From Cyclobacteriaceae bacterium (GTDB lineage Bacteria > Bacteroidota > Bacteroidia > Cytophagales > Cyclobacteriaceae), in NCBI GenBank assembly GCA_016786495.1, contig JAEUUJ010000019.1:62001-126000 (forward strand): a stretch of DNA of 64,000 nucleotides, written 5' to 3'. Under the pieces are notes generated by a model. It worked only from the letters and a program-made list of their open reading frames with translations, did no database searches and had not been told where the DNA came from. Positions 7,585 through 60,770 of the stretch are shown here, piece after piece (the stretch's first letter is position 1; each line of letters opens with the position of its first letter). The position numbers were made by a program, and so were the translations under genes.

Positions 7585-7587
7585 AAT

Positions 7588-7620
7588 TCAGGGACCTTGC
7601 CACCGGCAGGGTCCCTTTCT
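7588..7620 (+). terminator. Intrinsic terminator after the A2M gene
   Basis: A hairpin runs from 7590 to 7616: AGGGACC (7590-7596) pairs with GGTCCCT (7610-7616), and TTGCC/GGCAG extends the stem to 12 pairs with one G-U pair and a three-base loop. It is followed by TTTCT. It lies 5 bases past the A2M stop and just before the NTF2-like gene. The short T run suggests partial read-through. Confidence 0.7.
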
Positions 7621-7626
7621 AACGTT

Positions 7627-8055
7627 ATGAAAAAAATTATTTTCATTATCGGGTTTTGCATCACATCGCTTGTTGCGATGAGTCAACCCGCGCAGGAGCA
7701 GCATGTGCTCGATCTTTCTAAAAAGAAATTTCAGTGGATGGTGGCCATGCAGTTCGATTCGCTCCAAGCCGTGCTGGACGACCGGATGATGTTCATTCAT
7801 TCCAACGGATGGCTCGAAACAAAGACAGAGTTCATTCACGATATCCGGTCGGGCAAGCTGCGATACAAGTCCATCGACATCATCGAGGCTACCGCCCGCG
7901 TGTATCCGGGTTCCGCGATTATCATTGGCCGCGGAAAATTTGTTGTCACCCTCGATGGAAAAGATCTGCAACTGGAATTGAAATACACCGAAGTTTATAT
8001 TCAACAGAACGGCAAGTGGCTGCTGGCATCCCGCCATGCGAACCGCCTGCAATAG
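7627..8055 (+). CDS. Exported NTF2-like (DUF4440/SnoaL-type) protein
   Basis: A 142-residue protein with a signal peptide (MKKIIFIIGFC...VAMSQ). After cleavage about 120 residues remain with the cone-fold pattern of NTF2-like proteins: a helical FQWMVAMQFDSLQAVLDD start, a WLETKTEFIHDI middle and a strand-rich end KYTEVYIQQNGKWLLASRHA. Family members are usually small-molecule binding or enzymatic scaffolds, and no catalytic residue can be assigned. The ATG at 7627 is preferred over an in-frame codon at 7597 because the latter lies in the terminator and would bury the signal peptide. It sits between the A2M gene and pbpC, 8 bases before the latter, so it is probably translated with pbpC. Confidence 0.75.
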   Translation: MKKIIFIIGFCITSLVAMSQPAQEQHVLDLSKKKFQWMVAMQFDSLQAVLDDRMMFIHSNGWLETKTEFIHDIRSGKLRYKSIDIIEATARVYPGSAIIIGRGKFVVTLDGKDLQLELKYTEVYIQQNGKWLLASRHANRLQ

Positions 8056-8063
8056 CGGGTTTG

Positions 8064-10421
8064 ATGAAACGATTTCTTTTTCGGTTTCGCTATTACATCC
8101 TTTTCTTTTCGCTGGCGGCAGCGATTGGCTATTACTTTTGTTTGCCGGATACACTTTTCGAAGAACCGTACTCAACTGTATTGGAAGATTCGAAGGGTGC
8201 TTTGCTGAGTGCTTCGATCGCAACGGATGGCCAATGGCGTTTTCCGGAACTCAACGAAGTTCCTGAAAAATTTGAAAAAGCGCTTATTGCGTATGAAGAC
8301 AAACGGTTCTTCAGTCATCCGGGTGTCGACTTACTTTCGATGGGCCGCGCATTGCGGCAAAACATTTCTGAGGGACGTGTAGTAAGTGGCGGAAGCACAA
8401 TCGACATGCAGGTGATCCGGTTACACCGGAAGGAATCCGGCCGGACAGTACTCGAAAAAGCGATTGAATCTCTTCTAGCCACACGCCTTCAATTCCGGTA
8501 TTCCAAAAAGGAAATTTTATCGCTGTACGCATCTCATGCGCCCTTTGGCGGAAACGTAGTCGGGCTGGAAGCAGCGTGCTGGCGTTACTTCGGACGGGAA
8601 CCGAAAGAACTATCGTGGGCGGAAGCTGCGCTTCTGGCTGTACTTCCAAATTCTCCGGCACTTATTCACCCGGGCAAAAATCGTGACAGGCTGGTTCAGA
8701 AGAGAAATCGATTATTGCTGAAACTTAAGGACACTCAGTTAATCGACTCCTTAACGTATGAGTTGTCGGTCAAAGAGCCGATACCGCATGAACCGATGCC
8801 GTTACCGCGACTTGCACGGCACGCATTGCTGCGCGTATCGGTTGACGGGAAAGCGCAACAAAAAATCCGAAGCACCATCCGGTTGGAACTTCAGGAACGC
8901 GTTGAGCAAATCCTCGATGACCACTACCAGAAATTGAAAGGAAATCAAATTCATAACGCTTGCGCATTGGTGCTTGATGTAGAAACCGGAAATGTGCTGG
9001 CCTACGTTGGGAACGTTAACTCAGGTGCAGAACATAATTTTGATGTTGATCTGATTTCTGCGCCCCGCAGTACCGGCAGTATCTTAAAACCTTTTCTGTA
9101 CGCAGCGATGCTTGATGAAGGAAAAATTCTGCCAAAAACATTGCTGCCCGATATTCCGATTGTTATCAAAGGATTTGCCCCCAAGAATTTCACCCGTGAG
9201 TATGACGGTGCGGTTCATGCCGATCAGGCGTTGATTCGCTCCCTCAATGTGCCGGCCGTTTACCTCTTGAAAGAATATCGCTACGAACGTTTTTATGAGT
9301 TGCTGAAGAACATGGGCATTCGCACACTAACGCGTACGCCCGATCATTATGGGTTGTCGCTGATACTCGGTGGTGCAGAAGGAACTCTTTGGGATATCAC
9401 AGGTACATATGCCTCTATGGCGCGTACGTTAAATCATTACTTTTTGTATCCCGGAAAAAACCGATACGTTAAACAGGATTTTCATTCACCTGTGTATGTT
9501 CAATCAGATCCGGAAGAGCCGGTACCGGGAGAAAGTTCATGGCTGAGTGCGGCCGCCATTTATCAAACAATGGATGCATTGAAAGAAGTTTACCGGCCTG
9601 GGGAAGAGACCGGCTGGCGATATTTTAAGAGTTCCCGGAAGATCGCCTGGAAGACCGGGACCAGTTTTGGATTTCGGGATGGCTGGGCGGTAGGCGTGAC
9701 CCCACATTATGCCGTGGGTGTCTGGATCGGCAATGCCGATGGAGAAGGTCGCCCGGGATTAACCGGAACAGAAACAGCGGCACCGGTTATGTTCGACATC
9801 TTTTCGCAGCTCGATGGCTCGGGCTGGTTCAGCAAGCCGTTGCCGGAAATGAGTAAACTGATTACATGTTCAAAGAGCGGTCAGCTCTTCGGGCCGTATT
9901 GCGAGAAGCCGGATACCGTGTTGGTGGGCACAGTAGGTCAGGCTTCCGGGCTGTGTTCATTCCACAAACGGATTCACCTAAGCGCGGATAAAAAATTCAG
10001 AGTGCATAGCGATTGTGAATCGCTCGACAGGGTTGTGCAGCTAAATTGGTTTGTACTTCCGCCAGTTCAGGAGTATTACTTCCGAGGAAAGAATATTACG
10101 TACAGACCACTTCCGCCATACCGCAAAGATTGTCAGCCGCTGCAGGCGGTCGCCACGATGGATCTTGTGTATCCCAAACCCAACGCAAAGATTTTTATTC
10201 CACGCGACCTTGACGGAAAACCCGGCAGCGCGGTTTTCGAACTGGCGCACCGCAGCTCAACCGCTACGGTATACTGGCATATCGATGGAGAGTTTGCGGG
10301 CAGTACAAAAAAGGTGCACCACCTCGCCATCAATCCCCCGGAAGGGAAACACATCCTCACGGTGGTAGACGAGTCCGGGGAGACACTTGAGCGCACGTTC
10401 GAGATCATTTCCCGGCAGTGA
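8064..10421 (+). CDS. pbpC: Penicillin-binding protein 1C (glycosyltransferase/transpeptidase)
   Basis: A 785-residue class A penicillin-binding protein with one N-terminal membrane segment (about 7-24). The GT51 motifs are present: EDKRFFSHPGVD, GGSTIDMQ and LPNSPALIHPG. The transpeptidase domain has the GSILKP motif with nucleophile Ser339 and Lys342, the SLN motif and KTGTS. The C-terminal part (roughly the last 90 residues) matches the BiPBP_C domain found in PBP1C, and a cysteine-bearing stretch precedes it. It polymerises and cross-links peptidoglycan at the periplasmic face. Pairing with A2M is a known conserved arrangement, interpreted as protease trapping plus wall repair. An out-of-frame open stretch overlapping the NTF2-like gene is not used; the ATG at 8064 gives the correct N terminus. 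Confidence 0.95.
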   Translation: MKRFLFRFRYYILFFSLAAAIGYYFCLPDTLFEEPYSTVLEDSKGALLSASIATDGQWRFPELNEVPEKFEKALIAYEDKRFFSHPGVDLLSMGRALRQNISEGRVVSGGSTIDMQVIRLHRKESGRTVLEKAIESLLATRLQFRYSKKEILSLYASHAPFGGNVVGLEAACWRYFGREPKELSWAEAALLAVLPNSPALIHPGKNRDRLVQKRNRLLLKLKDTQLIDSLTYELSVKEPIPHEPMPLPRLARHALLRVSVDGKAQQKIRSTIRLELQERVEQILDDHYQKLKGNQIHNACALVLDVETGNVLAYVGNVNSGAEHNFDVDLISAPRSTGSILKPFLYAAMLDEGKILPKTLLPDIPIVIKGFAPKNFTREYDGAVHADQALIRSLNVPAVYLLKEYRYERFYELLKNMGIRTLTRTPDHYGLSLILGGAEGTLWDITGTYASMARTLNHYFLYPGKNRYVKQDFHSPVYVQSDPEEPVPGESSWLSAAAIYQTMDALKEVYRPGEETGWRYFKSSRKIAWKTGTSFGFRDGWAVGVTPHYAVGVWIGNADGEGRPGLTGTETAAPVMFDIFSQLDGSGWFSKPLPEMSKLITCSKSGQLFGPYCEKPDTVLVGTVGQASGLCSFHKRIHLSADKKFRVHSDCESLDRVVQLNWFVLPPVQEYYFRGKNITYRPLPPYRKDCQPLQAVATMDLVYPKPNAKIFIPRDLDGKPGSAVFELAHRSSTATVYWHIDGEFAGSTKKVHHLAINPPEGKHILTVVDESGETLERTFEIISRQ

Positions 10422-12963: not shown

Positions 12964-15900
12964 TTACTGGGCCAGGCTGAACCGCACCTGGGCTCCAAAA
13001 CGGGTGGTTGATCTCCGGAAGGAATTGGAAACCACCGGATCGTTAATCGTGCGCTCATAATAGAGCATGATGCTAAGCTTTTGATTGATTACATAGCTCA
13101 CGTTTGGACGAAGCTGGAAGTTGATGTTTCCGTTGGTGATCCGGTTGGGCAAGTCAATGACGCGCTGAATGGTTTTGGTATCAATCAGCGAAACGTTCAT
13201 CCGGAAGGTAACATCGTTTTTCAACACGATCGTACGGCCTTTCGTTTTGAAGGGCAGCTTGAAATTGTTCTTGGTGTAACCCAATTCTACTGATACATCC
13301 CGGCTGTTTAGTTCGGTAATCTGGGCATTCGAAACAAACAACGAAAGTTCGCGCTTGGTTTTGTAATCGGCCCGAACCGTTAACCGGTTCTTTGTGCGGA
13401 TGTTGATTCCGATCAGCGGAGAAAACTGTTCTGAAATCAATACCTGACTGATCACGTAAATGGGTAATACCTGGCCATCCACCACTTCGCCATACGTTCC
13501 GTTATTGTAGTCTTCGATCGGAACTTTGATTCCTACTTTGTTCGGATCGTTGTATTCGAGTGAGTTGTTGTAGTTGAGTACCGAGTAAGACGATGAATAC
13601 GCGTGCGACAGTGTAATTGCCTGGAATCGTTCCTTCAAGGCTGGAATGTTGATCAAGCCGGTGTAGTCAACGCGCCAGTTCGGAAGCGGAGTTTTCGGGA
13701 ACGGACTCAGACTAACCGACTTTGCACTCTTCCCGGTATATGCAGCGATGAACGAGGCGATGGTAACGTCTTGCGCAGTGTCGTACTCATGGCCGGTTCG
13801 TTTGAAAAATTCTTCCCGAATGGTTTCAATGTTCTTTTCAAACTGCTGGAAGACTTCCGAAGATTTTTCGTTGTTCGTTCGATTGAAGGCGGTGAGAATG
13901 CTGATCGTTGAAATTTTGTACGTACCGGCACGGTTCGGATTCAGCGAGGCAAAATCGTTGATGTCGCTCGAGAACCGGAAAATTTCCTGATACGAATCCG
14001 TTACATCCTTTTTCACGTCCAGCTGAATTTTTAACTCCGGTGTGGGGTCAATGTTCGCGCGCATGGATAAAGATTTAGTTCGCGACTGCGTGAAGAAGTT
14101 TGTCAGCTTCTCTTCTTTTGTGAGCCAGCCTTTGTCGGCTGCCCGGAAACGAATGTCGGAGTCCTGACTGCCGAGTACGAATCTCCAGCCCGGAGCCGCA
14201 AAGTCTTTATCCATTCCGAATAGCCAGGGAGAGGGCGAGAAGCCGGGAAGAATTGTTCCTTCGGTGAGTGTATAGGTTCCGTTGATGCTGCGCAGCGACA
14301 TGAGCACGCGTAACAATCCCTTTATCGCGGGAGAAACGGTGCGCACCGTGTCAGGTTGTTTTGTTACTTTCCCGGGTCTTGCCTTAGGCGGGTTGTTGAT
14401 GTCGCGCAGGAATGTGACTTTGTTATACAGTTTTACCATGTCGATACGACCGGTAAAAGTTTGCTCACGGCTGTTCTGAATTATGTTTTTGAAATCGAGC
14501 GAGAGCGTATCACGGGCATTGAACAGCGGCCCTGCACGCCAGTTATAATTTACCTGGTAGCGATACTCCAGTCCCAGCCAATCGGTAAGCGGGAATTTAT
14601 CGAGCGGAACGATGTAGTTAGCCGTTACCGATTGATCGTAATTTTTCATCCGGCCAAATTTCTTCAGGTTTTCGCGAAGCGTTTTGTTTACTTCTTCGCC
14701 TTCACCCTCCGGTTCATCGATGATGGCGTTAGCACGTGCGGCATATTCCAGCGTGATGGCTCCGGTAAGGTTCCATTTCACATTGTATTGACGGTTGAAG
14801 GTGAAATATTTCTGATAGTTTGGATCGGAACTCGACAACGAATTCCGGTATACGTTTTTAATGAACGAACGCTCCAGGTCACCCCGAACCAAGATGTTGT
14901 TTGGCATCGGACTGAACTTAAATTCTTTGATGAGTTTCAGGTAGGGCGATTTAAATGCGTCTGACTTTTTGAACGGTTCAATACCCGTTTCCTGTTTCGG
15001 TGCAAAATTGTATGCCACCCCGCCCCGGTACAAACGCTGTACAGATTCGTCAATTGTAAAGCTTCTTCGGGTGGCCTCGCTGTAGGAATAGTTAAACGAT
15101 AAGTTCTCAATGTCATAGAGATGATTTTCCGATTTGGGATCGGTTTTCATCTTTCGAACATTGGTGAAGTTAATACTCCTTCGCACCGTTCGGTCCTGAA
15201 TCAACCGTTTATAGGCATCTCGTTCCTTTCGGGGCAACGAATTCAAAAAGCCATCCAGTCGCACGTCAGGGTTGGCCGGGTCGAACTGCGGATTGATCGT
15301 AGTATTTTCATAGCTCACCAGCATCGGGAGTTTAATACCCGTATTACCCGGAATAAACTTGTCGAGGTTTACATTAGCCGTGATATCGTAGGCAGTGGTT
15401 TCATCACGTGTGCGTTCGCTGATTTTTGAGTTTACACTACCAAATCCGAAGGTGGTGTAGCGAAGCGATCCCGACACTACGGCAAAATCGGCAAGCTTGG
15501 TGTTGATTACCGTATTAACCGCCCAGCCCGCGGTACGGTCGAAATCGGTAAGGCGAAGTTCGTTAGCCCATAAACAAACATTATGCGTCTTTCCGTCAGT
15601 CGACTTTGGATTTCGAACTCCGATCATGATCACTTTAACCTGCGTCAGGTCGGGGCGACCCAGAATCCTGAATCCATGACGACCTTCAACGCTTGGTCCG
15701 TTCAACGGATATGGCACACTCAGCGGAGCGTTTTCCCGGTCGCGTCTTACCTTTAGTTTGTACAGTTCAGCAAGCGCAAAGTTGAATTCGTTGTCTTCCG
15801 GCCAAACGGCACGCTCGTCTTCGTCAAACGTATTCTTCGATATTTTTAAGGGAAGTTCGATTTCATAATAGTTTTCATCAAAGTCAGTACCCAACCGCAT

Positions 15901-18900
15901 AAACACCACCAATTCATCATCGTTGGTCAGCACGCTGTTGGCGTGGGTAAACATCTTAACACGGCCATAGTTAAAGAAATCCATGCCCACGTTTTTGAAA
16001 ATGGCACGTGAATCACCGTCTTCCAGGTCTTCAATACACATTTGAATCGACTGCTCATTCAGCTGGCGCGGAATGGATGATGTGTTGTCACGGTCACGAA
16101 TTACTCCGGGCGGAACAACGTATGCAGACTTCAATTCCGTTGCGCGGGAGTTTTCCTCAATGTTCACGACCGATACAGCTACGTTATCGGCACCGGGTTC
16201 TTCATCGGGGTTGATGCCACCCTCCTGCAGGTTTTCGGTGTACCGTCTCCACTGTGCACCAACCATGCGGAAGTTGGCCAGGCGAAGAACGACCGGTTGT
16301 TGAAAATCGGTTAGAATCATCCGGGCATAGCGGATGGAGGTAAAGCCACTGATGTTTCCGACTTTCCCTTTTACCTGTTGAACCGGAATGCGGAACAGGT
16401 ACCACTTCACTTTTCCATCCGGATGATTACCCTGAGGCGTTGCTTCAATCTCGTCAACGATGTATTCGCTGCCCACGCGCAATTTATCAGACTTCAGATC
16501 AATCTCGTATTCGTAATATTCTTCCAGTTCGCTGATGGTGTTGTCTACGTTCAAATCTTCATTGTCGGGGTAAGGGCTTCCTGAGCGTGCAATCTTATCG
16601 TTGCCGGAGATAACCGGTGTGTTGTTTTCCATGCCGTTGTAGTTCTTGTACCGCTCAAGAATCTTTGCATTCCGGTCGTCAAGATCACCCCCCAGGAAAT
16701 ATTTGAAATCGTCTCCGGATGGATCGGGAAAGAAAACATCATTTATGACAGTAGCGTCTACACGTCCGTCCAAATTGTTCAGGTAATCAATAAAGATTCC
16801 CTGTTCATTAATTGAACCGCGGGCGTTGGAGAGTCCGTCCAAACCAACGTCCTGGTTCTGCCGCGCAGTGGCAGAGTTGTCAAATGCATTCGTGAGGTAG
16901 TTTTGTGTGGTGACATAACCCCATGGAGTTTTGTTTGTTAATGCAGGTTCTGACTCAATTCCGCCTGATGGTAAACCGTTCTCGAATCCATGCTTCGAGT
17001 CAGGAATTACGTCCTCCGAGATATTCCCGAGGTGGAAAATAAGTTTTCCTCCAGTTGTATTGTTATCGTTGAATTTGCCATCGATGATCTTTCCGTATTC
17101 CGTTTGAATAAACGGATCAAGCATCCAGAATTCAATGTATTCGATGTTGGCTTTGTTAAAGTCAACCTCCGTTCGGATCGCTGTCGTAATACCCGCCCAG
17201 TTATTCTTCGCAACAGCAGGATCAAATTCTCCCTGAGAATTGAGGTTGGTTGTATAATTGTACGGACCGCGTTCGGTCGGATAGTATGCGACATCAAAGA
17301 TTTGTTCGAAGAAATTTCCCTGCGTAAAGTTCTTTTTAGGAAATATCTCCTGGGGATTTACAGCACGAACGTAGTGGTTACGCAAATCATTTGGCGTGAT
17401 GTTATCCGGCTTAAACTGCCCGCCATCGCGATAAAACTGGTTGTCTACCTGGTACCAGGCAAGTTTCGCCCTCCGATATCCCGTAGCAAGGTCTTCGCCA
17501 GCTTTAAATTTCTCAGGCGTGGAAGCTAATCGCCACGCGGCTGGATTCAACAAGGAATACGGTGTTGCAGTATTCTCGAAATCGTCAATATATCCCGTGC
17601 CGTTTTCGTCTACAATATTGGAAGTGCCCGGCAGCAATTGCGCGAACTCGGCATTAACACTGAAACTCGATAACTCTTTCGTTTGAATACCCGGAATCGC
17701 GTCAATCCACTTGGTTAACAACCGACTGTCTTTCCGAACGTTTACGTCAAAGCCATATTGAACATTTCGCGCTGGTTCTGTACCAATAGCATTTCGTGAA
17801 ATCAGCGGGCGCTCGTTGTAGAACAACAACGTGGAACCGAAATTGACTTCATCGTTAAGTTTATAATCAAAGCGGGTTCCGAGCAGCGTTCGCGTTTGAA
17901 AGGCAAACGGATCGGATTGCTCGTAATCGACCGTGATATTTTTTCCGGAATTCAGAATGGCATCGTTCAGAATGGTAACGCGACCGAACGTATAGTCAAC
18001 CACAAAGTCGGTTTGCTCCTGGAGCGGAGTTCCACCGGCATACACGCGCACCGAGCCGGGTGTTACACCAAATCCGGGGATTAGAATTTCTTTCGAGGAG
18101 CCCGAAGAGTTATAGGTACCCACCAGGTAAAATTTATTCTTGGTAGCAAGCAATTGTGCCTGCGCTTTGGGGATTCGATAGAGTGTATCGAACACGTACT
18201 TGTTAATCAGGTACGGCTTAAGTGCACCCTCGTTTGTAAAAGCAAGACGAAGGGGCTTGTTAAACGGTTCAAGGAACGGGAACATAATGAGACCCGTTTG
18301 CGTGTTCACGGTAAGCCCGTCAATAAAATCGAAGTTACCATCACCCGGAGGGTCGTTCACCGGATTTAACCGGTCAAGCCCCATGATTTCAATCAACTGA
18401 CGGTTCCGCGCATCTGTTCCTTCCTGTAATTGCGGATTGTCGATACCGGTGCGGTCGTCACGATAAATTACCCGTAACTGAAATCCATCCCGCGACAACT
18501 GGTTAACATTCAGGTTATAAATGTTCTTCATCATCAGGTCCCACATCGGCAACGTTCTGTTGTCGGCATCAGTTGGGAAATATTCGCGTGAACGAAGCAA
18601 CTTAAGGAAAACAACTTTAGATTCGGACAGTGAGGCATAATCTTCTGAAAGCTCACCAACCTTGTAGTTGCGACCATTGTACGTGTATTCGTACGCTACC
18701 GCCAGGGCCTCGTCACTTTGCAATTTGCGTGACAGGGTGATGTACCCCAGTTGTTTGTGGTAGGTAAATTCAGTTGGTGACAGCCTGCGCGCTGAATTGA
18801 TTTTTTCAAAGTCTGTGCCATTCGTCAGGTTATAAGGTGCACCCTCCAGTACGCCAATGATCTGATCAGCTTCCCGGTTCGCAGTCTGCAAGGCGGCAAA

Positions 18901-20136
18901 CAACGTGTTCGCCCCGTTGGCATTCGGAAGTTCCGTGCCGGTACCATTTGAGGTAACTGCTGCATCGTTGTAAATCACATTGGGTTCCCCGAGATCGGCA
19001 AAGCCAACTACCCCACGAAGTGTTTGTGTATCATTGCTGCGGTTGATCAGGTAAACCTCAACGCGGGTAACGTTTACACCGCTGATGATTTGAGGTGTAT
19101 TGCGCAACCAGGTTTCGTAGTTATCGCGAAAGAAGTGACCCAGAAAAAAGTGACGACTTTCGTCATATTCAGAAGCTACAAACTGAAACTCTCTTCCCTG
19201 GCCGTTGCTTCCGCCCGCAATATTGATGGATTGTACTTTTCCGCGTTGCGTAGAAGCAACGGAGGTAACAAACAATTTTCCGAACTGCATCTGCGCTTTA
19301 ATACCAAACAGGTTTTGCGACCCCTGGATAAGCGTGTTGTTCAGCGGTAAGCTTACGTTACCAATCTCGAGTTTTTTAAGAATGTCTTCCTTAAAACCCG
19401 TGTACTCAACCTTCATGTTATTTTGAAAGTCGAACGAGTTGTTGTTATCAAACGTAGCGCTTACGGCAAGCTTTTCGCCCACTTTACCCACCACGCTCAT
19501 GTTGATTTGCTGATCGAACTCAAAACCGCCATTCCGTTGCTGACGAATGGGTAAATCCGGTTTAAAGATTCGTTGAAACGATCCGCCAAAGTCGAGCGTG
19601 ACAAAACCTCTGGGCACGAGTTCAACATAACTTCCCCCGAAGATGCGGTCCAGAATCGGGCTGATATAAATCTTGGGAATAAGTCCCCGCGAACTTACCG
19701 CACTTTCTCCGTCAGCACCCCGGGCCTTGCTTTGCCAGTAGCCCTTCAATAACTGCCGGTCTTGCAGCGATTTGAACTCCTCGAACGACATGGTCGTAAC
19801 CGGACGATAGTTCAGGTCGCCAATTTTCTCGTAGATGGTATAATTCAGGTTCGAATCAAGTTCCACATCGAGGTTAACCTTCGTGGGATCTTTCAGGAAA
19901 AGCGGTGATTCGGTAGGGGTGTTGGTGAACGGATCGCCATACCGGTCGCGCAGACGAAAGGTTGGTTTCCGGCTGGGGCGATACGACCTGTTTTTAACTG
20001 TGTCTTGCTTGCTGAGCTTAGTAGTATCCTGGCGCTCCTGGAATGCTTCCGCGCGGGTGCTGAACACACCAAACCATGCTGTTAGCAGAGTAAATACAAC
20101 AGCATGTGAGAGATTTATTTTCTTCACACGGGTCAA
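12964..20136 (-). CDS. sprA: SprA, type IX secretion outer-membrane translocon
   Basis: A 2390-residue protein with an N-terminal signal segment (about 10-32, ending ...FSTRAEA), one of the largest single-chain beta-barrel translocons known. The sequence is strand-rich throughout, shows recurring aromatic/glycine beta patterns, and ends with a barrel-like C-terminal strand (TTRFGAQVRFSLAQ). In Flavobacterium johnsoniae SprA is the channel through which type IX cargo crosses the outer membrane; it is also needed for gliding. The length and the ruvA (7-base spacing) and gcvH neighbours support orthology. A probable type IX cargo is encoded at 35560. Whether this organism glides cannot be told from this window. 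Confidence 0.95.
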   Translation of the reverse strand: MTRVKKINLSHAVVFTLLTAWFGVFSTRAEAFQERQDTTKLSKQDTVKNRSYRPSRKPTFRLRDRYGDPFTNTPTESPLFLKDPTKVNLDVELDSNLNYTIYEKIGDLNYRPVTTMSFEEFKSLQDRQLLKGYWQSKARGADGESAVSSRGLIPKIYISPILDRIFGGSYVELVPRGFVTLDFGGSFQRIFKPDLPIRQQRNGGFEFDQQINMSVVGKVGEKLAVSATFDNNNSFDFQNNMKVEYTGFKEDILKKLEIGNVSLPLNNTLIQGSQNLFGIKAQMQFGKLFVTSVASTQRGKVQSINIAGGSNGQGREFQFVASEYDESRHFFLGHFFRDNYETWLRNTPQIISGVNVTRVEVYLINRSNDTQTLRGVVGFADLGEPNVIYNDAAVTSNGTGTELPNANGANTLFAALQTANREADQIIGVLEGAPYNLTNGTDFEKINSARRLSPTEFTYHKQLGYITLSRKLQSDEALAVAYEYTYNGRNYKVGELSEDYASLSESKVVFLKLLRSREYFPTDADNRTLPMWDLMMKNIYNLNVNQLSRDGFQLRVIYRDDRTGIDNPQLQEGTDARNRQLIEIMGLDRLNPVNDPPGDGNFDFIDGLTVNTQTGLIMFPFLEPFNKPLRLAFTNEGALKPYLINKYVFDTLYRIPKAQAQLLATKNKFYLVGTYNSSGSSKEILIPGFGVTPGSVRVYAGGTPLQEQTDFVVDYTFGRVTILNDAILNSGKNITVDYEQSDPFAFQTRTLLGTRFDYKLNDEVNFGSTLLFYNERPLISRNAIGTEPARNVQYGFDVNVRKDSRLLTKWIDAIPGIQTKELSSFSVNAEFAQLLPGTSNIVDENGTGYIDDFENTATPYSLLNPAAWRLASTPEKFKAGEDLATGYRRAKLAWYQVDNQFYRDGGQFKPDNITPNDLRNHYVRAVNPQEIFPKKNFTQGNFFEQIFDVAYYPTERGPYNYTTNLNSQGEFDPAVAKNNWAGITTAIRTEVDFNKANIEYIEFWMLDPFIQTEYGKIIDGKFNDNNTTGGKLIFHLGNISEDVIPDSKHGFENGLPSGGIESEPALTNKTPWGYVTTQNYLTNAFDNSATARQNQDVGLDGLSNARGSINEQGIFIDYLNNLDGRVDATVINDVFFPDPSGDDFKYFLGGDLDDRNAKILERYKNYNGMENNTPVISGNDKIARSGSPYPDNEDLNVDNTISELEEYYEYEIDLKSDKLRVGSEYIVDEIEATPQGNHPDGKVKWYLFRIPVQQVKGKVGNISGFTSIRYARMILTDFQQPVVLRLANFRMVGAQWRRYTENLQEGGINPDEEPGADNVAVSVVNIEENSRATELKSAYVVPPGVIRDRDNTSSIPRQLNEQSIQMCIEDLEDGDSRAIFKNVGMDFFNYGRVKMFTHANSVLTNDDELVVFMRLGTDFDENYYEIELPLKISKNTFDEDERAVWPEDNEFNFALAELYKLKVRRDRENAPLSVPYPLNGPSVEGRHGFRILGRPDLTQVKVIMIGVRNPKSTDGKTHNVCLWANELRLTDFDRTAGWAVNTVINTKLADFAVVSGSLRYTTFGFGSVNSKISERTRDETTAYDITANVNLDKFIPGNTGIKLPMLVSYENTTINPQFDPANPDVRLDGFLNSLPRKERDAYKRLIQDRTVRRSINFTNVRKMKTDPKSENHLYDIENLSFNYSYSEATRRSFTIDESVQRLYRGGVAYNFAPKQETGIEPFKKSDAFKSPYLKLIKEFKFSPMPNNILVRGDLERSFIKNVYRNSLSSSDPNYQKYFTFNRQYNVKWNLTGAITLEYAARANAIIDEPEGEGEEVNKTLRENLKKFGRMKNYDQSVTANYIVPLDKFPLTDWLGLEYRYQVNYNWRAGPLFNARDTLSLDFKNIIQNSREQTFTGRIDMVKLYNKVTFLRDINNPPKARPGKVTKQPDTVRTVSPAIKGLLRVLMSLRSINGTYTLTEGTILPGFSPSPWLFGMDKDFAAPGWRFVLGSQDSDIRFRAADKGWLTKEEKLTNFFTQSRTKSLSMRANIDPTPELKIQLDVKKDVTDSYQEIFRFSSDINDFASLNPNRAGTYKISTISILTAFNRTNNEKSSEVFQQFEKNIETIREEFFKRTGHEYDTAQDVTIASFIAAYTGKSAKSVSLSPFPKTPLPNWRVDYTGLINIPALKERFQAITLSHAYSSSYSVLNYNNSLEYNDPNKVGIKVPIEDYNNGTYGEVVDGQVLPIYVISQVLISEQFSPLIGINIRTKNRLTVRADYKTKRELSLFVSNAQITELNSRDVSVELGYTKNNFKLPFKTKGRTIVLKNDVTFRMNVSLIDTKTIQRVIDLPNRITNGNINFQLRPNVSYVINQKLSIMLYYERTINDPVVSNSFRRSTTRFGAQVRFSLAQ

Positions 20137-20817: not shown

Positions 20818-23094
20818 CTAAAGGTGATCGTTCTGATCGTGCAACTGTGCGTCTACCACGGCAATTGCTGCCATGTTAACGATCTCACGGATCGAACTTC
20901 CCAGTTGAAGTACATGCACCGGCTTTTTCATTCCTAACAGGATCGGACCGATTGCTTCAGCACCGCCAATTTCTGTTAACAATTTATATGCGATGTTTCC
21001 GGATTCAAGATTCGGGAAGATAACCGTGTTGGCTCCGTCTTTCGATAATGCACTAAACGGAAAGCTCTCCTGCTGGATCTCGGTATTGAATGCCACGTTG
21101 GCCTGGATATCTCCGTCAATGATCAGATCAGGATACTTTTGTTTTGCCAAACGGACTGCCTCACGCGTTTTTTCAGGCACTTCACCTTTCGATGATCCGA
21201 AGTTTGAATACGACAGCACGGCAACACGCGGCTCCATGTCGAAAAATTTCACACCGCGGGCCGTCAATCCGATAATGTCCACCAGTTGTTCAGCGGTTGG
21301 ATCAACGTTTACCGTGGTATCGGCAAAGAAGAATGTTCCGCGTTTATTCAACAAAATGTACATACCTGCCACACGGCTTACGCCTTCTGCAATGCCAATG
21401 ATCTGCAACGAAGGCAGAATGGTTTTAGGATAATCCTTTGTTAACCCGGAAACCAGTGCATCGGCTTCACCAACTTCAACCATCATGGCACCGTAGTAGT
21501 TGCGGTCGCGCAGAAGTTGCTGGCAGTCGCGCAGCGACAATCCCTTGCGCTGGCGTTTCTTGTAGAGTACTTCGGCAAACTGTTCGACCTTTTCATTCTC
21601 TTTTCGCGGATAAATGATCGGGCAGTTTAGATCGAGATCGTGCTCTTTGATCAATTTTTCAATTTGTTCTTTGTCGCCCAGCAAAATTGGATGGGCGATG
21701 CCTTCATCCTGCAGGATTTGAGCAGCTTTCAGAATTTTATGGTGATGCGCTTCGGCAAAGACCACGCGTTTTGGATTCGACTTGGCGCGGTCAATCACGC
21801 GCGTCATCAGTTTTTGATCGATGCCAATACGGTTCAATAACTCCTGGTGATAAGCACCCCAGTCGGTGATGGGCTTTTTCGCCATGCCCGAATCCATGGC
21901 AGCCTTAGCCACGGCAGGAGAGATGGTGGTAATCAAGCGTGGATCAAGCGGCTTGGGAATCAAATACTCTTTTCCAAAAGTAAGCTTCGCATCGCCATAG
22001 GCCTTTACAACAATATCCGGAACAGATTCTTTCGCCAGGGTAGCCAATGCATGGACGGCAGCCAACTTCATCGCTTCGTTGATTTCAGTTGCGCGTACAT
22101 CAAGTGCTCCGCGGAAGATATAGGGGAAGCCGAGAACGTTGTTCACCTGGTTAGGATGATCGGAGCGGCCGGTAGCCAGAATAATATCCTTGCGTGTTTT
22201 TTTGGCAATCTCGTATCGGATTTCCGGATCAGGGTTTGCCAGGGCAAACACGATCGGATTTTTAGCCATCGAATTAATATCTTCTTCGGTTAGCACATCG
22301 GCCACGGAAAGCCCGATAAAGAAGTCCGCTCCTTTCATCGCTTCCTGCAGGGTAGTCACCTTACGGGTGGTAATAAATTCTTTTTTGATGTCGTCCAGAT
22401 CCGTGCGGCCACTGTGAATCGCTCCCTTGCTGTCGCACATCACTACATTTTCCTTCTTGACACCGAGGGTTAAGTACAAGCGTGTACAACTTACCGCAGC
22501 AGCCCCGGCTCCGTTTACAACAACTTTAATCTCATCGATTTTTTTATCCACCAGTTCGAGCGCATTCAGCAGGGCGGCAGCAGAAATGATAGCCGTTCCG
22601 TGCTGATCATCGTGCATCAGCGGGATGTTCATCTTATCACGCAACTCCTGTTCAATCTTAAAACACTCGGGCGCTTTAATGTCTTCCAGGTTTACTCCGC
22701 CAAATGTGGGCTCAAGTGATTTTACAATCTGGATGAACTTGTCGGGATCAGTTTCGTCTATCTCAATGTCGAACACGTCAATACCGGCAAACTTTTTAAA
22801 GAGTACGCCTTTGCCTTCCATCACCGGCTTGGATGCTTCCGGTCCGATGTTACCCAATCCCAGCACGGCTGTTCCGTTTGAGATCACGGCTACCAGGTTT
22901 CCCTTGGAGGTATACTTATAAACATCTTCTTTATTGGCGGCAATTTCTTTACAGGGTTCGGCCACTCCTGGCGAATAGGCCAGCGCCAGGTCGAGCTGTG
23001 AACTCAACATCTTGGTAGGCACTACTTCAATTTTTCCGGGCTGGCCCTGCATGTGGTAATTAAGGGCGTCTTCTTTCCTGATTTTTATAGACAT
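20818..23094 (-). CDS. maeB: NADP-dependent malic enzyme with C-terminal phosphotransacetylase-like domain
   Basis: A 758-residue two-part protein. Residues 1 to about 430 form the malic enzyme ([43 protein letters not shown] nucleotide-binding loop), and residues about 440-758 resemble phosphate acetyl/butyryltransferase ([24 protein letters not shown]). It decarboxylates malate to pyruvate with NADPH formation; the C-terminal domain in MaeB proteins is regulatory and acetyl-CoA responsive rather than catalytic. An in-frame start 11 codons upstream overlaps the region of the -7 box at 23116-23123, so the start at 23094 ([11 protein letters not shown]) is chosen. ruvA and sprA follow in the same direction. 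Confidence 0.93.
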
Positions 23095-23115
23095 CTGGGT
23101 CGATTTTAGAACTGC

Positions 23116-23123
23116 CAAAGATA
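23116..23123 (-). promoter_or_regulatory. Candidate -7 promoter box for maeB
   Basis: The minus strand reads TATCTTTG, an exact TAnnTTTG match, 21 bases upstream of the chosen maeB ATG. It excludes the longer in-frame start at 23127. No TTG is found at the right -33 distance. Confidence 0.45.
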
Positions 23124-23239
23124 GCATTCTCGCGTCAAATATTGCCTACTTAAAAACCGAGAGAAACATCGCAAACGAGATTTTGCCGATGGCGCTGGTT
23201 GATAATGGCAGGGTAGAAAATTCTCTGGAAGAGGTAAAA

Positions 23240-23719
23240 TTAGTATGTGCTTTTCAGATAGTCAGTTACCTCTGGTATTTTAAAATCAGTCACGTAAATA
23301 TAATGTACAACTTCACCCTGTTTTATGTGAATAAGCAATGGCTTACCGAGACCGGTTTCATACGAAAAAATAGTCTGCGAGGAGTCCTGTAAACAGGTAT
23401 TGTTTGCGCAAAGTTTAGAAACACGCAGGGCCATCTCATTATCTTCCGCTGCTCCCACTGTAATGATCTTCAATAATTTACAATTTCCTAAATTTTCGAG
23501 CATTGTAACATTCCGGTATGCGCAAGGGGCACAACTATGTAATGGAAGGATGTAGAAGATGGTTTCGTTTACACTCGTTATATCAATTTTTTGTTCGTTC
23601 CGTAAATAATGAGAGAACCCTCGAATATAGGGGTAAGATTCGCGCGAGTTACTGCACTGTAACAAGAGCAGTGCGACAATGATCCAACTAGTTTTTCTTA
23701 ATGAGGACTTTAGCTTCAT
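23240..23719 (-). CDS. Thioredoxin-like lipoprotein with CAPC motif
   Basis: A 159-residue putative lipoprotein: a hydrophobic signal (about 11-20) ends at a lipobox LLLLQC with Cys22. The strand FYILPL followed by HSCAPC (Cys63 and Cys66) and a helix (AYRNVTMLENL) is the redox-site arrangement of TlpA/thioredoxin-fold proteins. Three further cysteines occur at 80, 104 and 109. The C-terminal half (GKPLLIHIKQGEVVHYIYVTD) resembles the beta-hairpin end of the fold. The cis-proline is not obvious, so activity is uncertain. Its start overlaps the preceding gene by 32 bases, so it is the last gene of the peptide-lipoprotein operon. A disulfide-handling role for that locus is inference. Confidence 0.65.
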   Translation of the reverse strand: MKLKSSLRKTSWIIVALLLLQCSNSRESYPYIRGFSHYLRNEQKIDITSVNETIFYILPLHSCAPCAYRNVTMLENLGNCKLLKIITVGAAEDNEMALRVSKLCANNTCLQDSSQTIFSYETGLGKPLLIHIKQGEVVHYIYVTDFKIPEVTDYLKSTY

Positions 23720-24734
23720 CTAAGATAATAAGTTTTTCTTCGCCTTCGTTATTTAAAGGAATCAGATAATGTTCGTAGTAGCGTGTCCCTTTTATTTCCT
23801 TTTGCCAGTGAACTTTTCCATTTACTATGGCGGTAGGGAAAAATGTAATTGTTGCAATCTTTAAGTTTTCATCGGGACCTGCTGCCGTATAGATGTCGTA
23901 TTCTTTTTCACTGATTTTGTTTACCCAATAACTCTGCTTGCCAAAGTAATCATAGTAATAGTACCAGGACTTTGTATTGTGCAGGGCTTTGAACATGACA
24001 GACTTGTGTGTGTTCGATAGCGTATCAAACTCATACATTTTATTAGCTTCCGGGCTTATGAGATATAGTTTTGAATCGTGGAAGGTGTACATGCAGTCGT
24101 ATCGATTCATCCACGCATACCAATCGTCATTAAACCTGTCTTTTGTAACGACAGCATCTTCACTATTAATATTAAACACTTTTCCATTCGATTGCACCCA
24201 GTATTTTGGTGGTTGTGGCGTTTTTTTATTGAGTTGCTTTTTTTTCGGTAGGTAGTAGCCAAACGTATAGCTTCCGATTTTGCCCATTAAACAATATTTG
24301 TAAACTACGTCTTCGATATTTTCTATGGGTACGTTAAAGGCATTGCGGATTATGTCGGTTTTGTTAATTCCTGCAGAGAGCCGGAGGTTTTCAATCACGA
24401 ACTTATCCCCCGTCACCAGAACGTTAAAACACGACTGTCTGGTGAGCACCATAAACCTATCAGCACCTAGTGGAATTACCTGCTGTATCGCTTCCCAGTT
24501 AGAACTAATGAGTGCCTTAACGTTTAGTTTATATTCAATTAGCCCCCTCTTTAAAAGAACCAACGTAGTACCTTTTTGAATGGCAATGGCACGTTCTTTA
24601 TCAATAAAATAAATATCTCCAATTTTTTCGTTTTCGTTTGTGTAATACAGATACGGTACTAAGTCAGACTTTATCTGTGCCTGGCCCATTAAGGCAATCA
24701 ACAGCGGACAAATTTGAACAACAAATTTGATCAT
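23688..24734 (-). CDS. Exported protein of unknown function (possible beta-propeller)
   Basis: A 348-residue protein with a signal peptide (MIKFVVQICPLLIALMGQAQ). I do not recognise a family. The mature part shows repeated strand-turn-strand units with aromatic residues (DRFMVLTRQSCFNVLVTGDKF, YWVQSNGKVFNI, SKLYLISPEANKMYEFD, KSYWVNKISEKEYDIY), as in beta-propeller proteins. Its ATG overlaps the stop of the DUF4221 lipoprotein gene (ATGA), and its 3' end overlaps the CAPC lipoprotein gene by 32 bases, so all three are translationally coupled. Location is periplasm or cell surface. It may be a divergent partner or paralogue of the DUF4221 propeller (inference). Confidence 0.6.
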   Translation of the reverse strand: MIKFVVQICPLLIALMGQAQIKSDLVPYLYYTNENEKIGDIYFIDKERAIAIQKGTTLVLLKRGLIEYKLNVKALISSNWEAIQQVIPLGADRFMVLTRQSCFNVLVTGDKFVIENLRLSAGINKTDIIRNAFNVPIENIEDVVYKYCLMGKIGSYTFGYYLPKKKQLNKKTPQPPKYWVQSNGKVFNINSEDAVVTKDRFNDDWYAWMNRYDCMYTFHDSKLYLISPEANKMYEFDTLSNTHKSVMFKALHNTKSWYYYYDYFGKQSYWVNKISEKEYDIYTAAGPDENLKIATITFFPTAIVNGKVHWQKEIKGTRYYEHYLIPLNNEGEEKLIILDEAKVLIKKN

Positions 24735-25978
24735 AGCGTACCGGTGGAAACAATGTTGAACCTAATGCGCTTGTTAAGTGTCAGATAATCTTCGTTGATC
24801 TTTTTTCCGCCACATGTACTGGCTGTAATAAAGCCATCGGAAGTTGCTATAAAATAACCCGGCAATAGCGTTATGGTATTGTCAATAGCCTTTTCTATAA
24901 TGGGGTTCATGTCCTGGTCAAAAAACTGAATGGACAGGTTGCGGTTGCAAAACTGATTTAGCTTACCATCGTTGCCATATAATGGGATTTCATGAAACAC
25001 GATACGGGAGAATATTTTTAGCTTGCTGTGGTACGATAACCTGCCATAAAAGGGGGCGCTGATGAGATAATTCGTCTCTTGCTGGATGTCGGCGTCGAGT
25101 GCAGGCGGCTCAGGTATTTTTGAAATGGCGTTACCGCCAATGCACTTTTTGCCCATAAACTCGCCCTTTGTGTTATACTGATACGCATGCGCGCTCAGCG
25201 GGTAGCTAACCCACACACTACCGTTGGCATATACAAGATTAGGGAGGGTGAAGTCATCTGGCAACGTTATGTCGGGGGTGGTGTAAACCCCTTCCGTATG
25301 TCCATATAGCCTAGTCCACTTTCTTTCCGTTAAATTATACACACAAAACAATTTCATATCTGCCCGATTACTGTGATAATAAAAATCAAAAGGCGTGATA
25401 GCGATGTGTACGAGACCGTTGAACAGAATCGGTTTTTGAAAATTTCTTTTCGAGTGGTAATAGTTGGGAGCATAGTCCCATTCTACAGGAGCTTCGTTTA
25501 ACTTCCATGAAGTTATGAGTTTACCGTGGTGGTTGATCAACAATAGCGTGTAAGGATCATTTGCGGTTAAAAAAATAGAGTCTGCAGTGTGAACCATTAT
25601 GTTGGCGATCGGCTGATCAAACTCAGGATCAGTAAGAAGGATAGATCGTACAAGCCCGGAGTCTAATCTAAACACGTCAATCCTGTTTTCAGTAGCCTCG
25701 AGGCCGTAGTAGAGATTGTTGGCTTCAGCGTAGTCAAAAATTCGATGTGCATAGCGTGCTGTAGTTGGTACCGGGGTCCAGCTATCCGTGGTATCTGCGG
25801 TAATAGTAATGTTACTTACACTATCCGTAAAGCAATTCGGCAATTCGGCAGAAGGGTTGGTTGAACAGCCCACCAATACTAACACCGTGGCAGACGCCGC
25901 CAACAGGCTGCAACACGTTGTGTAAAAATAAGGAGCATTGCTGCCCCTTTGCCTTTTACCAAAATCTGATTTAATCAT
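24731..25978 (-). CDS. DUF4221-like surface lipoprotein
   Basis: A 415-residue lipoprotein with an unusually long signal region: a basic N terminus, a hydrophobic core at about 25-36 and a lipobox LVGC with Cys38. The mature part has propeller-like repeats and matches my recollection of the Bacteroidota-specific DUF4221 family, notably ISAPFYGRLSYHSKLKIFSRIVFHEIP. The family has no established function; members are predicted surface-exposed propellers. It starts 41 bases downstream of the second small exported peptide and its stop overlaps the next start (ATGA). Assignment to DUF4221 rests on pattern memory; that it is a lipoprotein is well supported. Confidence 0.68.
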   Translation of the reverse strand: MIKSDFGKRQRGSNAPYFYTTCCSLLAASATVLVLVGCSTNPSAELPNCFTDSVSNITITADTTDSWTPVPTTARYAHRIFDYAEANNLYYGLEATENRIDVFRLDSGLVRSILLTDPEFDQPIANIMVHTADSIFLTANDPYTLLLINHHGKLITSWKLNEAPVEWDYAPNYYHSKRNFQKPILFNGLVHIAITPFDFYYHSNRADMKLFCVYNLTERKWTRLYGHTEGVYTTPDITLPDDFTLPNLVYANGSVWVSYPLSAHAYQYNTKGEFMGKKCIGGNAISKIPEPPALDADIQQETNYLISAPFYGRLSYHSKLKIFSRIVFHEIPLYGNDGKLNQFCNRNLSIQFFDQDMNPIIEKAIDNTITLLPGYFIATSDGFITASTCGGKKINEDYLTLNKRIRFNIVSTGTL

Positions 25979-26019
25979 AAATCAATACACATTTCTTGAA
26001 TAGAATATGCCCGATAATC

Positions 26020-26247
26020 CTAAGATCGGTCACAGTTGCTTTTCAGAGAGTACATACATTCCCACTCACGTCCTACAAATCTCTCTACATGCCCGTCGGA
26101 AAAAGTGACGTCTATGGGCACCATTATTTGCTTTAGATTTCCCTTCTGGCCAAAGATGCCTGCCTTTGTTTCGCTAACATTAGTTGAAGCTGTCACAATA
26201 GCTGCCAGTACGATGCCAGCAGTGTACAAAATTCTTTTTGTTTTCAT
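26020..26247 (-). CDS. Small exported peptide, copy 1 (Cys-bracketed C terminus)
   Basis: A 75-residue peptide: a basic start MKTKR, a hydrophobic core about 6-20, then ETKAGIFG near a probable cleavage point. Its first 38 residues are identical at 28 positions, by my count, to the peptide encoded at 26363-26560. Both end in CxYSLKSxC; here Cys64 and Cys72, with seven residues between. The central part (MVPIDVTFSDGHVERFVG) is unlike its paralogue. The organisation recalls the short leader-bearing NVEALA-type peptides of Bacteroidota, but the signature is not present. It lies 41 bases upstream of the DUF4221 lipoprotein gene. Function unknown. Confidence 0.75.
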   Translation of the reverse strand: MKTKRILYTAGIVLAAIVTASTNVSETKAGIFGQKGNLKQIMVPIDVTFSDGHVERFVGREWECMYSLKSNCDRS

Positions 26248-26362
26248 AGTTATGGTTTAATTATTAAGGACTTAACACAGATGGTTTTTATCAATTTTCA
26301 ATAAGGCTATCGGTATTTTTCGACTTGTCCCCTTTAAACGTTGAGGAGGCAGCGATACACTA

Positions 26363-26560
26363 TCACCAATCAGCTCGTCTACAGTCACTTTTAAGGGAGT
26401 AGTTGCAATCATATACAATCGTTCCCGTGCCTTCCATTTCCAACACCAGCTTTCCATACTTCCCGAAAATGCCTGCTTTTGTTTCGGTGTTATTAATTGA
26501 AGTTGTCACAATAACGGCTAATACTATACTAGCGGTGTACAAAATTTTCTTTGTTTTCAT
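26363..26560 (-). CDS. Small exported peptide, copy 2 (Cys-bracketed C terminus)
   Basis: A 65-residue peptide paralogous to the one at 26020-26247, from which it is separated by 115 bases. The leader (MKTKKILYTASIVLAVIV), the ETKAGIFG block and the C-terminal CNYSLKSDC (Cys52, Cys60) are shared, while the middle is shorter and different. Similarity in the leader is also evident in DNA, so this is a tandem duplication. A longer in-frame start at 26644 is rejected because the candidate promoter at 26589-26621 lies inside that extension and because the paralogue starts at the same MKTK. It is first in the putative operon. Function unknown. Confidence 0.75.
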   Translation of the reverse strand: MKTKKILYTASIVLAVIVTTSINNTETKAGIFGKYGKLVLEMEGTGTIVYDCNYSLKSDCRRADW

Positions 26561-26588
26561 GGTTTTTTGGTTAGGGTCAATTGAGCAA

Positions 26589-26621
26589 TGAATATACTTG
26601 CAATTGTCAAAATATCCAAAA
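26589..26621 (-). promoter_or_regulatory. Candidate promoter of the peptide-lipoprotein operon
   Basis: On the minus strand TTTTG (26617-26621) is followed after 20 bases by TATATTCA (26589-26596), an imperfect -7 box. The spacing is right for a Bacteroidota housekeeping promoter and would give a leader of about 22 bases before the ATG of the first peptide. Confidence 0.35.
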
Positions 26622-26865
26622 GCAAATATCCGGGTGGTGACCAAGAGGTTTCTTCTGCCTCTAACAGCAGCTAAGTAAGAAGAGATAGCTAAGATGCGCA
26701 GGTATTTCGAAACTTATCTATAGCGGAGGAATCTGAAGCATCGCTCCTTTTTTATAGAAAAGAGATGTCCGTATTTTGGCATCCATTATTGAAATACCCT
26801 ACCGTAGAAGGCCGGGTGGCTGTTTGGAACGACCGGAAATATTATCCAGCGCTCAGAAATTTTAT

Positions 26866-28317
26866 CTACAATGCAATGATTAACTTCTGCCCGGGCTGAA
26901 GCTTGTTGCTGGTGAGATTATTGAGAGACTTGAGCTTCTCAATGGTGAGTCCCTCAAACTTTCGGGAGATGTCCCAAAGCGTATCGCCATTCTGAACCGT
27001 GTAGGTTTTAGAGTCCGGTATCGGAAGTGCTGCAACGGGTTTCTGATGCTGACTTGCTACAGCGGAAGCATCTGCGGCCGACTGCTTGAGCCAGATGTTT
27101 AAGCGTTGATTCACGCGGATGGTGTTTCCGCTCAGATTGTTCCACTTGCGAAGATCGGCTACACGAACCCGGTAGCGCATCGCAATAGAGCCTAATACAT
27201 CACCGCTTTTAACCCGATAAACAATCCGGTCGCGTCCATACGTGCTGCCTTCCGATGTTTTCGCCAGCAGTTCAAGTTCTTTCTTTCCAACTTTCGAGGC
27301 TGAGTCGAGAATTGCTACGCGGTTTAACGCCAGGTTTTCTTTGGCAACCAGCGGTACGCGAATGATCTGCTTTTTGCCTTTGTACGGAACAGCATTGCGT
27401 TGCACAGACGGATTGAGCAACTGCAAATCTTCGGTGCAAATGCCGGTTAAGTTTGCAAATGTTTCAAAGTTCAAAAATCTGTCGAGGTGAAGCGTATCAT
27501 ACGGCATCATCTTTTCTTCGCCTACATCGTAAAAGTTATGTTCATCCAGGTAGTTCATGGCATAGATAATGGCTACGAACTGCGGAACATACGACCGGGT
27601 TTCGCGCGGCATGTATTTATACGCCTGCCAGAAATCTTTTTTATAGCCCGATCTGCGGATTGCCTTCTTCACGTTGCCGGGGCCGGCATTGTACGAAGCA
27701 AGTGCAAGTTCCCAATCGCCAAACATTCCGTATAACTGTTTCAAGTATTGGCAGGCGGCCTCGGTTGCTTTTTCTGGATCCATGCGGTCATCAATAAACC
27801 AGTCACTTTGCAATCCGAAATGACGACCGGTTGGCCCCATGAATTGCCACAGGCCCACTGCGCGTGCGCGCGACACGGCTTTCGGATTTAACCCGGATTC
27901 AATGATGGATAGATATTTCAACTCATCCGGCAGACCGTATTTTGCCAGATACTTCTCGAACAGCGGAAAGTAAATTTCTCTTCGTGAAGCAACCATGCGG
28001 GTATACTCACGGTCGCGAACGGTGAAATAGTTGATGAACGAATGAACGCGCTCGTTATAGTTGAGGGGAATTGTTTGTTGAAGGCAGCCCAGCCGGTCTT
28101 CAATAACGGCAGGCAAATCATTTCCGGGAATATACTCGACATCGGTGGGCAACGCATAAAAGGCGAAGTTTGCCGAATCTTCAATTTCCTTGAACAGGAT
28201 TTCTTCTTCCGCGATAGCAATTTCTGATGTATCAGCGGGCAACGGTTCCGGATCCTGTGCGAATGACATCACAGAGGCGAAAGAAAAAAGCATCGCAAAA
28301 AGTAGTCTGTTGTTCAT
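26866..28317 (-). CDS. MltD-like membrane-bound lytic transglycosylase with two LysM domains
   Basis: A 483-residue exported protein with a signal peptide (1-20, ending MSFA). The SLT domain spans about 110-260, with catalytic Glu140 in LSIIESGLNPKAVS, then GLWQFMGPTGRHFGL and LASYNAGPGNVKKA. Two LysM repeats follow at about 371-414 (YRVKSGDVLGSIAMRY) and 437-481 (YTVQNGDTLWDISRKF). The enzyme cleaves glycan strands to 1,6-anhydro-muropeptides, and LysM holds it on peptidoglycan. Its start lies one base from the gatA stop. It belongs to the minus-strand envelope block with the EnvC-like activator. Confidence 0.93.
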   Translation of the reverse strand: MNNRLLFAMLFSFASVMSFAQDPEPLPADTSEIAIAEEEILFKEIEDSANFAFYALPTDVEYIPGNDLPAVIEDRLGCLQQTIPLNYNERVHSFINYFTVRDREYTRMVASRREIYFPLFEKYLAKYGLPDELKYLSIIESGLNPKAVSRARAVGLWQFMGPTGRHFGLQSDWFIDDRMDPEKATEAACQYLKQLYGMFGDWELALASYNAGPGNVKKAIRRSGYKKDFWQAYKYMPRETRSYVPQFVAIIYAMNYLDEHNFYDVGEEKMMPYDTLHLDRFLNFETFANLTGICTEDLQLLNPSVQRNAVPYKGKKQIIRVPLVAKENLALNRVAILDSASKVGKKELELLAKTSEGSTYGRDRIVYRVKSGDVLGSIAMRYRVRVADLRKWNNLSGNTIRVNQRLNIWLKQSAADASAVASQHQKPVAALPIPDSKTYTVQNGDTLWDISRKFEGLTIEKLKSLNNLTSNKLQPGQKLIIAL

Positions 28318-60748: not shown

Positions 60749-60770
60749 GGGTTTTGTAACCCCTTTTTTC
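60749..60770 (+). terminator. Second terminator-like hairpin before the phosphatase promoter
   Basis: GGGTT (60749-60753) pairs with AACCC (60758-60762) around TTGT, followed by a CTTTTTTC run. It ends 4 bases before the phosphatase -7 box. It would stop plus-strand transcripts coming from the hairpin side. Confidence 0.5.

Follow-up and report, generated by a model that had tools for sequence, protein, structure and literature searches.

What does a bacterium do with two short exported peptides whose genes stand directly before those of three further exported proteins? The question is raised by five minus-strand genes in a 64,000-nucleotide stretch of DNA, here called the window, from a Cyclobacteriaceae bacterium (assembly GCA_016786495.1, contig JAEUUJ010000019.1, positions 62,001 to 126,000). 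The genes encode, in order, two cysteine-containing peptides of 65 and 75 amino acids (aa), a 415-aa propeller lipoprotein, a 348-aa exported protein and a 159-aa lipoprotein with a CxxC motif. An initial annotation, made from the letters of the sequence, had proposed an exported-peptide system in which the larger proteins receive or process the peptides. Here we report that these genes are genuine and are met again elsewhere as one unit, and we infer, with a probability of about 0.5, that the peptides carry disulfides formed by the CxxC lipoprotein, are bound by the propeller lipoprotein, are exported by an RND/HlyD pump and act between cells.

A five-gene set that recurs as a unit

The open reading frame (ORF) calls bear out the layout first described, with an ATGA overlap (24731–24734) joining the 415-aa and 348-aa genes and a 32-base overlap (23688–23719) joining the 348-aa and 159-aa genes. 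The two lipoboxes that had been read correspond to lipobox-like motifs, LVGC in the 415-aa protein (Cys38) and LLQC in the 159-aa protein (Cys22). The segment is also AT-richer than its flanks, as noted at the outset: G+C content is 37.8–44.0% in the genes of the set versus 48.3–50.6% in maeB, mltD and gatA, and the 348-aa gene has the lowest value among the 34 window ORFs longer than 250 aa (mean 47.8%, s.d. 2.5%). An Rfam search returned no match, and an RNA element reading was rejected. The Bacteroidota −33/−7 promoter consensus had one exact match in the window, at the distant position 60753, with 2.3 expected by chance.

Elsewhere the same gene order is met as a module of exported cysteine peptide, propeller lipoprotein and CxxC lipoprotein. 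A DUF4221 profile of three sequences, all module-type and thus favouring module-type genes, matched 79 of 390 genomes of the order when up to four candidates were scored per genome, and 40 regions around the best matches were read, seven of them later extended. With a cysteine peptide required within 500 nucleotides (nt) upstream of the DUF4221 gene and a CxxC lipoprotein downstream, 17 of 55 DUF4221 genes, the window excluded, had both partners, 2 the CxxC lipoprotein only, 6 the peptide only and 30 neither (Fisher test, p = 1.8e-7). Some of these loci had contributed rows to the CxxC profile; profiles that left out the genome being scored gave identical counts, and a bare CxxC-motif rule used in place of the profile gave 13, 4, 10 and 28 (p = 9e-4). 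A CxxC protein accompanied 19 of 25 module lipoproteins.

The modules were also approached from the CxxC protein. Its profile matched 23 of 345 genomes of the phylum (up to 10 candidates scored in each), several of the weakest matches being unrelated, and in all eight best-scoring genomes other than that of the window the gene directly upstream encoded an exported protein of 375–431 aa. Six of these proteins match DUF4221 (G215, G403, G095, G907, G389 and G777), as judged with a profile not trained on them or in earlier searches, and two do not (G076 and G739). A second set of loci (L111–L122), chosen in a way that itself accounts for most of its CxxC genes, held 12 genes counted as DUF4221 (none in L117), seven with both partners, four with the CxxC lipoprotein only and one with neither. 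The 394-aa protein of G076 (L116) matched the DUF4221 profile only because that profile contained its own row; we dropped it as DUF4221-like, and it still stands among those four.

The closest relative of the window set among the loci examined is that of Dyadobacter tibetensis Y620-1 (L106), which holds two peptides with an AGIF/AGPM...C-Y...C pattern and the best matches of the window DUF4221 and CxxC proteins (146.8 and 80.2 bits). It differs in having no homologue of the 348-aa protein and in the genes that adjoin it, for a TonB-dependent receptor, DUF4249, HlyD, TolC and RND permeases; the peptides themselves are only weakly similar (E = 0.012 for the 65-aa peptide). Glycosyltransferase genes come after several modules in L041 (6758–8125, 10340–11713 and 16941–18347) and L042 (from about 3316), which belong to two genomes of a single genus. 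One of them was scored (EryCIII-like_C, UDPGT) and the others look alike; they might serve peptide or lipid modification.

Table 1. Parts of the five-gene set, in window coordinates
Feature	Position	Strand	Basis
Exported peptide precursor 1, 65 aa from ATG, two cysteines (CNYSLKSDC)	26363–26560	−	ORF and signal-like start; paralogue of precursor 2
Exported peptide precursor 2, 75 aa, two cysteines (CMYSLKSNC)	26020–26247	−	ORF; paralogue of precursor 1; 41 nt upstream of the 415-aa gene
Terminator-like hairpin, just within the 5′ end of the 415-aa gene	25930–25949	−	Hairpin search
Divergent DUF4221-type propeller lipoprotein, 415 aa	24731–25978	−	Profile of relatives
Exported protein, 348 aa, family without Pfam model	23688–24734	−	Homologues within modules
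Probable thioredoxin-fold lipoprotein, 159 aa, CAPC motif	23240–23719	−	Profile match, CxxC

Exported cysteine peptides under selection

The two window peptides are 61% identical (E = 1.1e-10), and their ratio of nonsynonymous to synonymous substitutions (dN/dS) is 0.32 over 63 codons. Between the peptides of G095 and G267 the ratio is 0.05, and 0.05 again for the mature part alone; in the L041/L042 pair synonymous sites are saturated. Selection and recurrence together rule out that the peptides are chance ORFs. The module peptides listed begin with a Sec-like signal, and most have 2, 4 or 6 cysteines in their mature part; counted from residue 27, 29 of the 33 had an even number of cysteines (p = 5e-6; one helix-turn-helix (HTH) protein of L042 left out of the count). 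In the window peptides, with the cut site placed by eye, mature parts of about 36 and 46 residues each hold one C-x6/7-C pair.

Peptides of this kind recur beside DUF4221-type and CxxC lipoproteins in other genomes, a co-occurrence on which the initial annotation had staked its reading, but the window peptides are hardly recognisable by sequence outside their own genome: a search of 295 genomes matched two, their own and one with a doubtful hit that contains a stop. Module peptides are therefore recognised by context. Leader positions are identical at 22 of 29 sites in the window pair and mature positions at 16 of 34; we made no use of a conserved leader with a variable mature part as a hallmark, since the picture was mixed elsewhere and one orthologue pair had a conserved mature part.

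In the stretch from the peptide gene to nucleotide 60 of the lipoprotein ORF, a terminator-like hairpin was found in 12 of 31 modules, the window included, with 1.0 expected; at the 3′ end of the DUF4221 gene, taken as control, there were 3 versus 0.8 expected. The window hairpin is not significant alone (one found in the 3.9-kb region, 3.0 expected). A terminator-like hairpin after the peptide gene would leave the peptide made in excess over the lipoproteins, so the peptides probably outnumber their partners.

Three exported partner proteins

The label DUF4221 for the 415-aa protein held through its relatives and not through the Pfam model, since PF13970 found nothing in the protein up to E = 10. 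Two relatives match PF13970 (4e-16 and 2.3e-13), a profile of relatives with the window protein outside the training set matches it over its full length (E = 1.6e-56), and the family profile with the window protein included matches the solved structure 3s9j (E = 3.3e-61). On these profile comparisons it is a divergent DUF4221-like protein and not a filed member of PF13970; it shares full-length profile similarity with that family, but is too divergent for its Pfam model, and 30 of the 55 genes in the family set are solitary.

The 348-aa protein, which has a signal-like start and no lipobox, matched no Pfam model, its single-sequence structure model gave no usable fold (mean predicted local distance difference test score (pLDDT) 37.2), and its profile comparison with DUF4221 was weak (24.8% probability). 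Its place in the system, assumed from the start, is borne out by its family: the two other members found among 196 genomes of the same taxonomic family both lie within peptide/DUF4221/CxxC modules.

For the 159-aa lipoprotein a thioredoxin fold is probable. A profile of 29 sequences, in which the first cysteine of the motif is invariant and the second present in at least 90%, gave a modest match to the thioredoxin oxidoreductase 8t4c (E = 1.5e-4); the structure model is of low confidence (mean pLDDT 48.6). The CxxC motif, probable fold and lipoprotein signal resemble thiol-disulfide oxidoreductases of the TlpA/ResA/DsbE type; unlike these, 18 members gave no match to a Pfam thioredoxin family, and the CxxC gene adjoins a propeller lipoprotein gene in the loci read. 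In one G215 module a frameshift interrupts the CxxC lipoprotein gene (L060, 14452–14921).

Linkage to RND and HlyD pump genes

An RND permease gene lay within 5 kb of 7 of the 13 module loci selected through DUF4221, versus none of 27 solitary DUF4221 loci (p = 9e-5). With only 7–20 RND matches per genome, as counted in twelve genomes, chance should seldom place one so near. Two divergent permease types, here RND1 and RND2, recur near modules. Both occur in the window's own genome on another contig, C6 (L161, 62000–81900), together with two complete modules, each preceded by an HTH gene; the order there is HlyD, RND1, HTH, peptide (six cysteines), propeller, CxxC, HTH, peptide (four cysteines), propeller, CxxC, RND2. 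The propellers there are DUF5128 (E = 2.9e-32 and 1.1e-36), and the CxxC motifs are DCSDC and HCNQC. In G1032, too, the pump is on another contig than the module. Because the pump of the window's genome sits around two sister modules on a separate contig, the window set looks like a satellite module that uses the pump in trans. The exported-peptide frame of the initial annotation is partly supported; its picture lacked the RND/HlyD pump genes linked to modules, and also the DUF5128 propellers that are equivalent to DUF4221.

An RND2 profile matched 53 of 291 genomes of the order at 54 places, a minimum copy number because two candidates were scored per genome. On the assumption that these 291 genomes are the first of the 390 searched with DUF4221, and with solitary DUF4221 genes included, 46 genomes held both, 7 RND2 only, 7 DUF4221 only and 231 neither. 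DUF4221 was present in 27 of 30 RND2 genomes from the same genus and family, versus 0 of the 12 genomes listed there without RND2; kinship inflates both sets of figures.

We tested 40 of the 54 RND2 places, the 14 left out including those that had first suggested the link. Nearby were another RND permease (34 places), HlyD (37), a DUF4221 or DUF5128 propeller (20) and a CxxC lipoprotein (7), and all three module parts were found by profiles at 5. By a rule that used no propeller profiles, a cysteine peptide stood directly before an exported lipoprotein of 300–480 aa in 16 of 40 RND2 regions (one of them, L201, looks spurious) versus 2 of 29 controls (p = 0.002). Cysteine peptides directly before exported lipoproteins were also seen in the control regions L045 (7777) and L072 (10606), so there are other such peptide families that do not lie by the pump.

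A layout shared with NVEALA loci

The initial annotation had likened the set to NVEALA-type loci, and the NVEALA regions read agree with it in layout. PF14055 matched 2 of 149 genomes of class Bacteroidia (G073 and G107) at 11 places, of which four regions were read. There, small exported cysteine peptides stand directly upstream of propeller lipoproteins: in L150 one NVEALA peptide directly precedes a DUF4221 gene (profile E = 3.2e-77), others precede propeller-type lipoproteins of other kinds, of which one was scored as DUF5128/TolB-like, and a CxxC lipoprotein comes next in L151 and L152. These CxxC proteins are longer, however (287 aa, and 289 aa in the one that has a choice-of-anchor-D-like part), and neither the window peptides nor the window's genome gave a PF14055 match. 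Judged from these matches, the window set shares the NVEALA layout but not the peptide family.

Genomic place and likely arrival

In the genus-mates G215, G014, G588, G638 and G1121 the gene next to mltD encodes a lipoprotein of 361–364 aa and of one kind (the G215 copy scored as DUF4837, PF16125, E = 3.6e-66; one other was compared with it by tblastn and the rest by eye), and in the last four of these genomes the stretch shown also takes in the start of maeB on the far side. When the window (23127–26866) is set against these loci (L131–L135), the DUF4837-type gene is missing and the module is in its place; positions 22901–27100 held no DUF4837 remnant (best E = 8.3), and a search of the window's genome gave no match. 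The module has thus taken the site of an earlier gene. Of the genus-mates searched with the DUF4221 profile, G215 matched, but G014, G588 and G638 did not. The G215 copies are more distant from the 415-aa protein than its closest relative, the copy of Dyadobacter tibetensis, a member of a different family (Spirosomataceae), with which the window protein pairs in a tree at 100/100 support. Lateral arrival of the module is likely on this comparison of sequences; no plasmid relatives of the 415-aa protein were found. The tree served for that pairing alone: a single origin of module-type DUF4221 genes was set aside, as the tree requires five changes and has long branches.

Further off in the window, a 2390-aa ORF occupies 12964–20136 of the minus strand, and on the plus strand (1996–10421) a bacterial alpha-2-macroglobulin gene adjoins one for a penicillin-binding protein that has a BiPBP_C domain, a known gene pairing.

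A proposed route and its rivals

In the route that we propose, the operon would yield two Sec-exported peptides, probably in excess over their partner proteins. The CxxC lipoprotein would oxidise or isomerise the peptide disulfide in the periplasm, and the DUF4221 propeller, helped by the 348-aa protein, would bind the peptide as an export adaptor or self-protection factor. The RND–HlyD pump encoded around the two sister modules on the other contig would then export it in trans, and the peptide may act between cells as a signal or an antagonist.

Several observations weigh against this route. Of 55 DUF4221 genes, 30 are solitary. No RND or HlyD gene lies within the 64-kb window, RND permeases in the second set stand beside only 3 of its 11 loci, and the four NVEALA regions hold no ORF of pump size (about 1000 aa). 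No peptide–lipoprotein pair was found at 24 of 40 RND2 regions; counted per lipoprotein the enrichment is weaker (22 of 87 versus 2 of 31, p = 0.035), and the RND2 regions are longer than the controls (721 kb versus 324 kb). Related genomes were treated as independent in all association tests, which makes the p-values too small, and the thioredoxin fold is backed by a modest match and a low-confidence model.

A bacteriocin-like system, in which the peptides would act against close relatives by killing or inhibiting them and the propeller lipoproteins would confer dedicated self-immunity, is compatible with most of the proposed route and differs in the roles of propeller and peptide. Small exported peptides, probably made in excess, would suit it, as would loci with several different peptides, each paired with a lipoprotein of its own, the patchy presence among genus-mates, and the low G+C content together with the replacement of a resident gene. 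On reading, however, the signals are Sec-type, with no double-glycine leader and no peptidase-ABC exporter among the five genes (the part of the genome read for one), two species share a conserved mature part, and a CxxC protein unneeded for immunity accompanies most module lipoproteins. We regard this alternative as unlikely, though the likeliest of the rivals. The peptides and lipoproteins might instead serve the RND pump as accessories or regulators, acting as small modulators and sensors and not as cargo. Pump linkage and the HTH genes inside the C6 cluster fit such a role, but there is no adjoining pump in the window, in the NVEALA regions or at many modules, several different peptides occur per pump and the peptide is predicted to be in excess. 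Regulation is the less probable of these two.

Copper resistance systems also contain cysteine-rich peptides, CxxC proteins and RND pumps, and the peptides could accordingly buffer metal or thiols in the periplasm, with the CxxC lipoprotein as a metallochaperone and the RND pump as a heavy-metal exporter. Three RND permeases (two in L060, one in L106), however, fit multidrug models (289.5, 480.5 and 228 bits) better than CusA/CzcA (145.3, 284.6 and 94 bits), all of these scores being far below curated cut-offs, and the window peptides have two cysteines only and no His- or Met-rich stretch. Metal or redox handling is improbable on these grounds.

The protein families are catalogued; the system is undescribed as far as our searches reach. 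Full texts searched, with subscription papers and preprints outside, yielded no paper mentioning DUF4221 or NVEALA, and titles and abstract openings within the same bounds gave no account of such a system. Somewhat short of an even chance, we place a wider proposal, that the modules belong to an undescribed, phylum-wide Bacteroidota route of peptide secretion, with a dedicated thioredoxin-fold lipoprotein, interchangeable propellers (DUF4221, DUF5128 and others), a distinct heteromeric RND pair, NVEALA as one branch and window-like satellites served in trans. If true, NVEALA, the DUF4221 and DUF5128 propellers and a divergent RND type would join in one testable system, pumps annotated only as efflux permeases would gain candidate cargo, and RND pumps of Bacteroidota would secrete ribosomal peptides.

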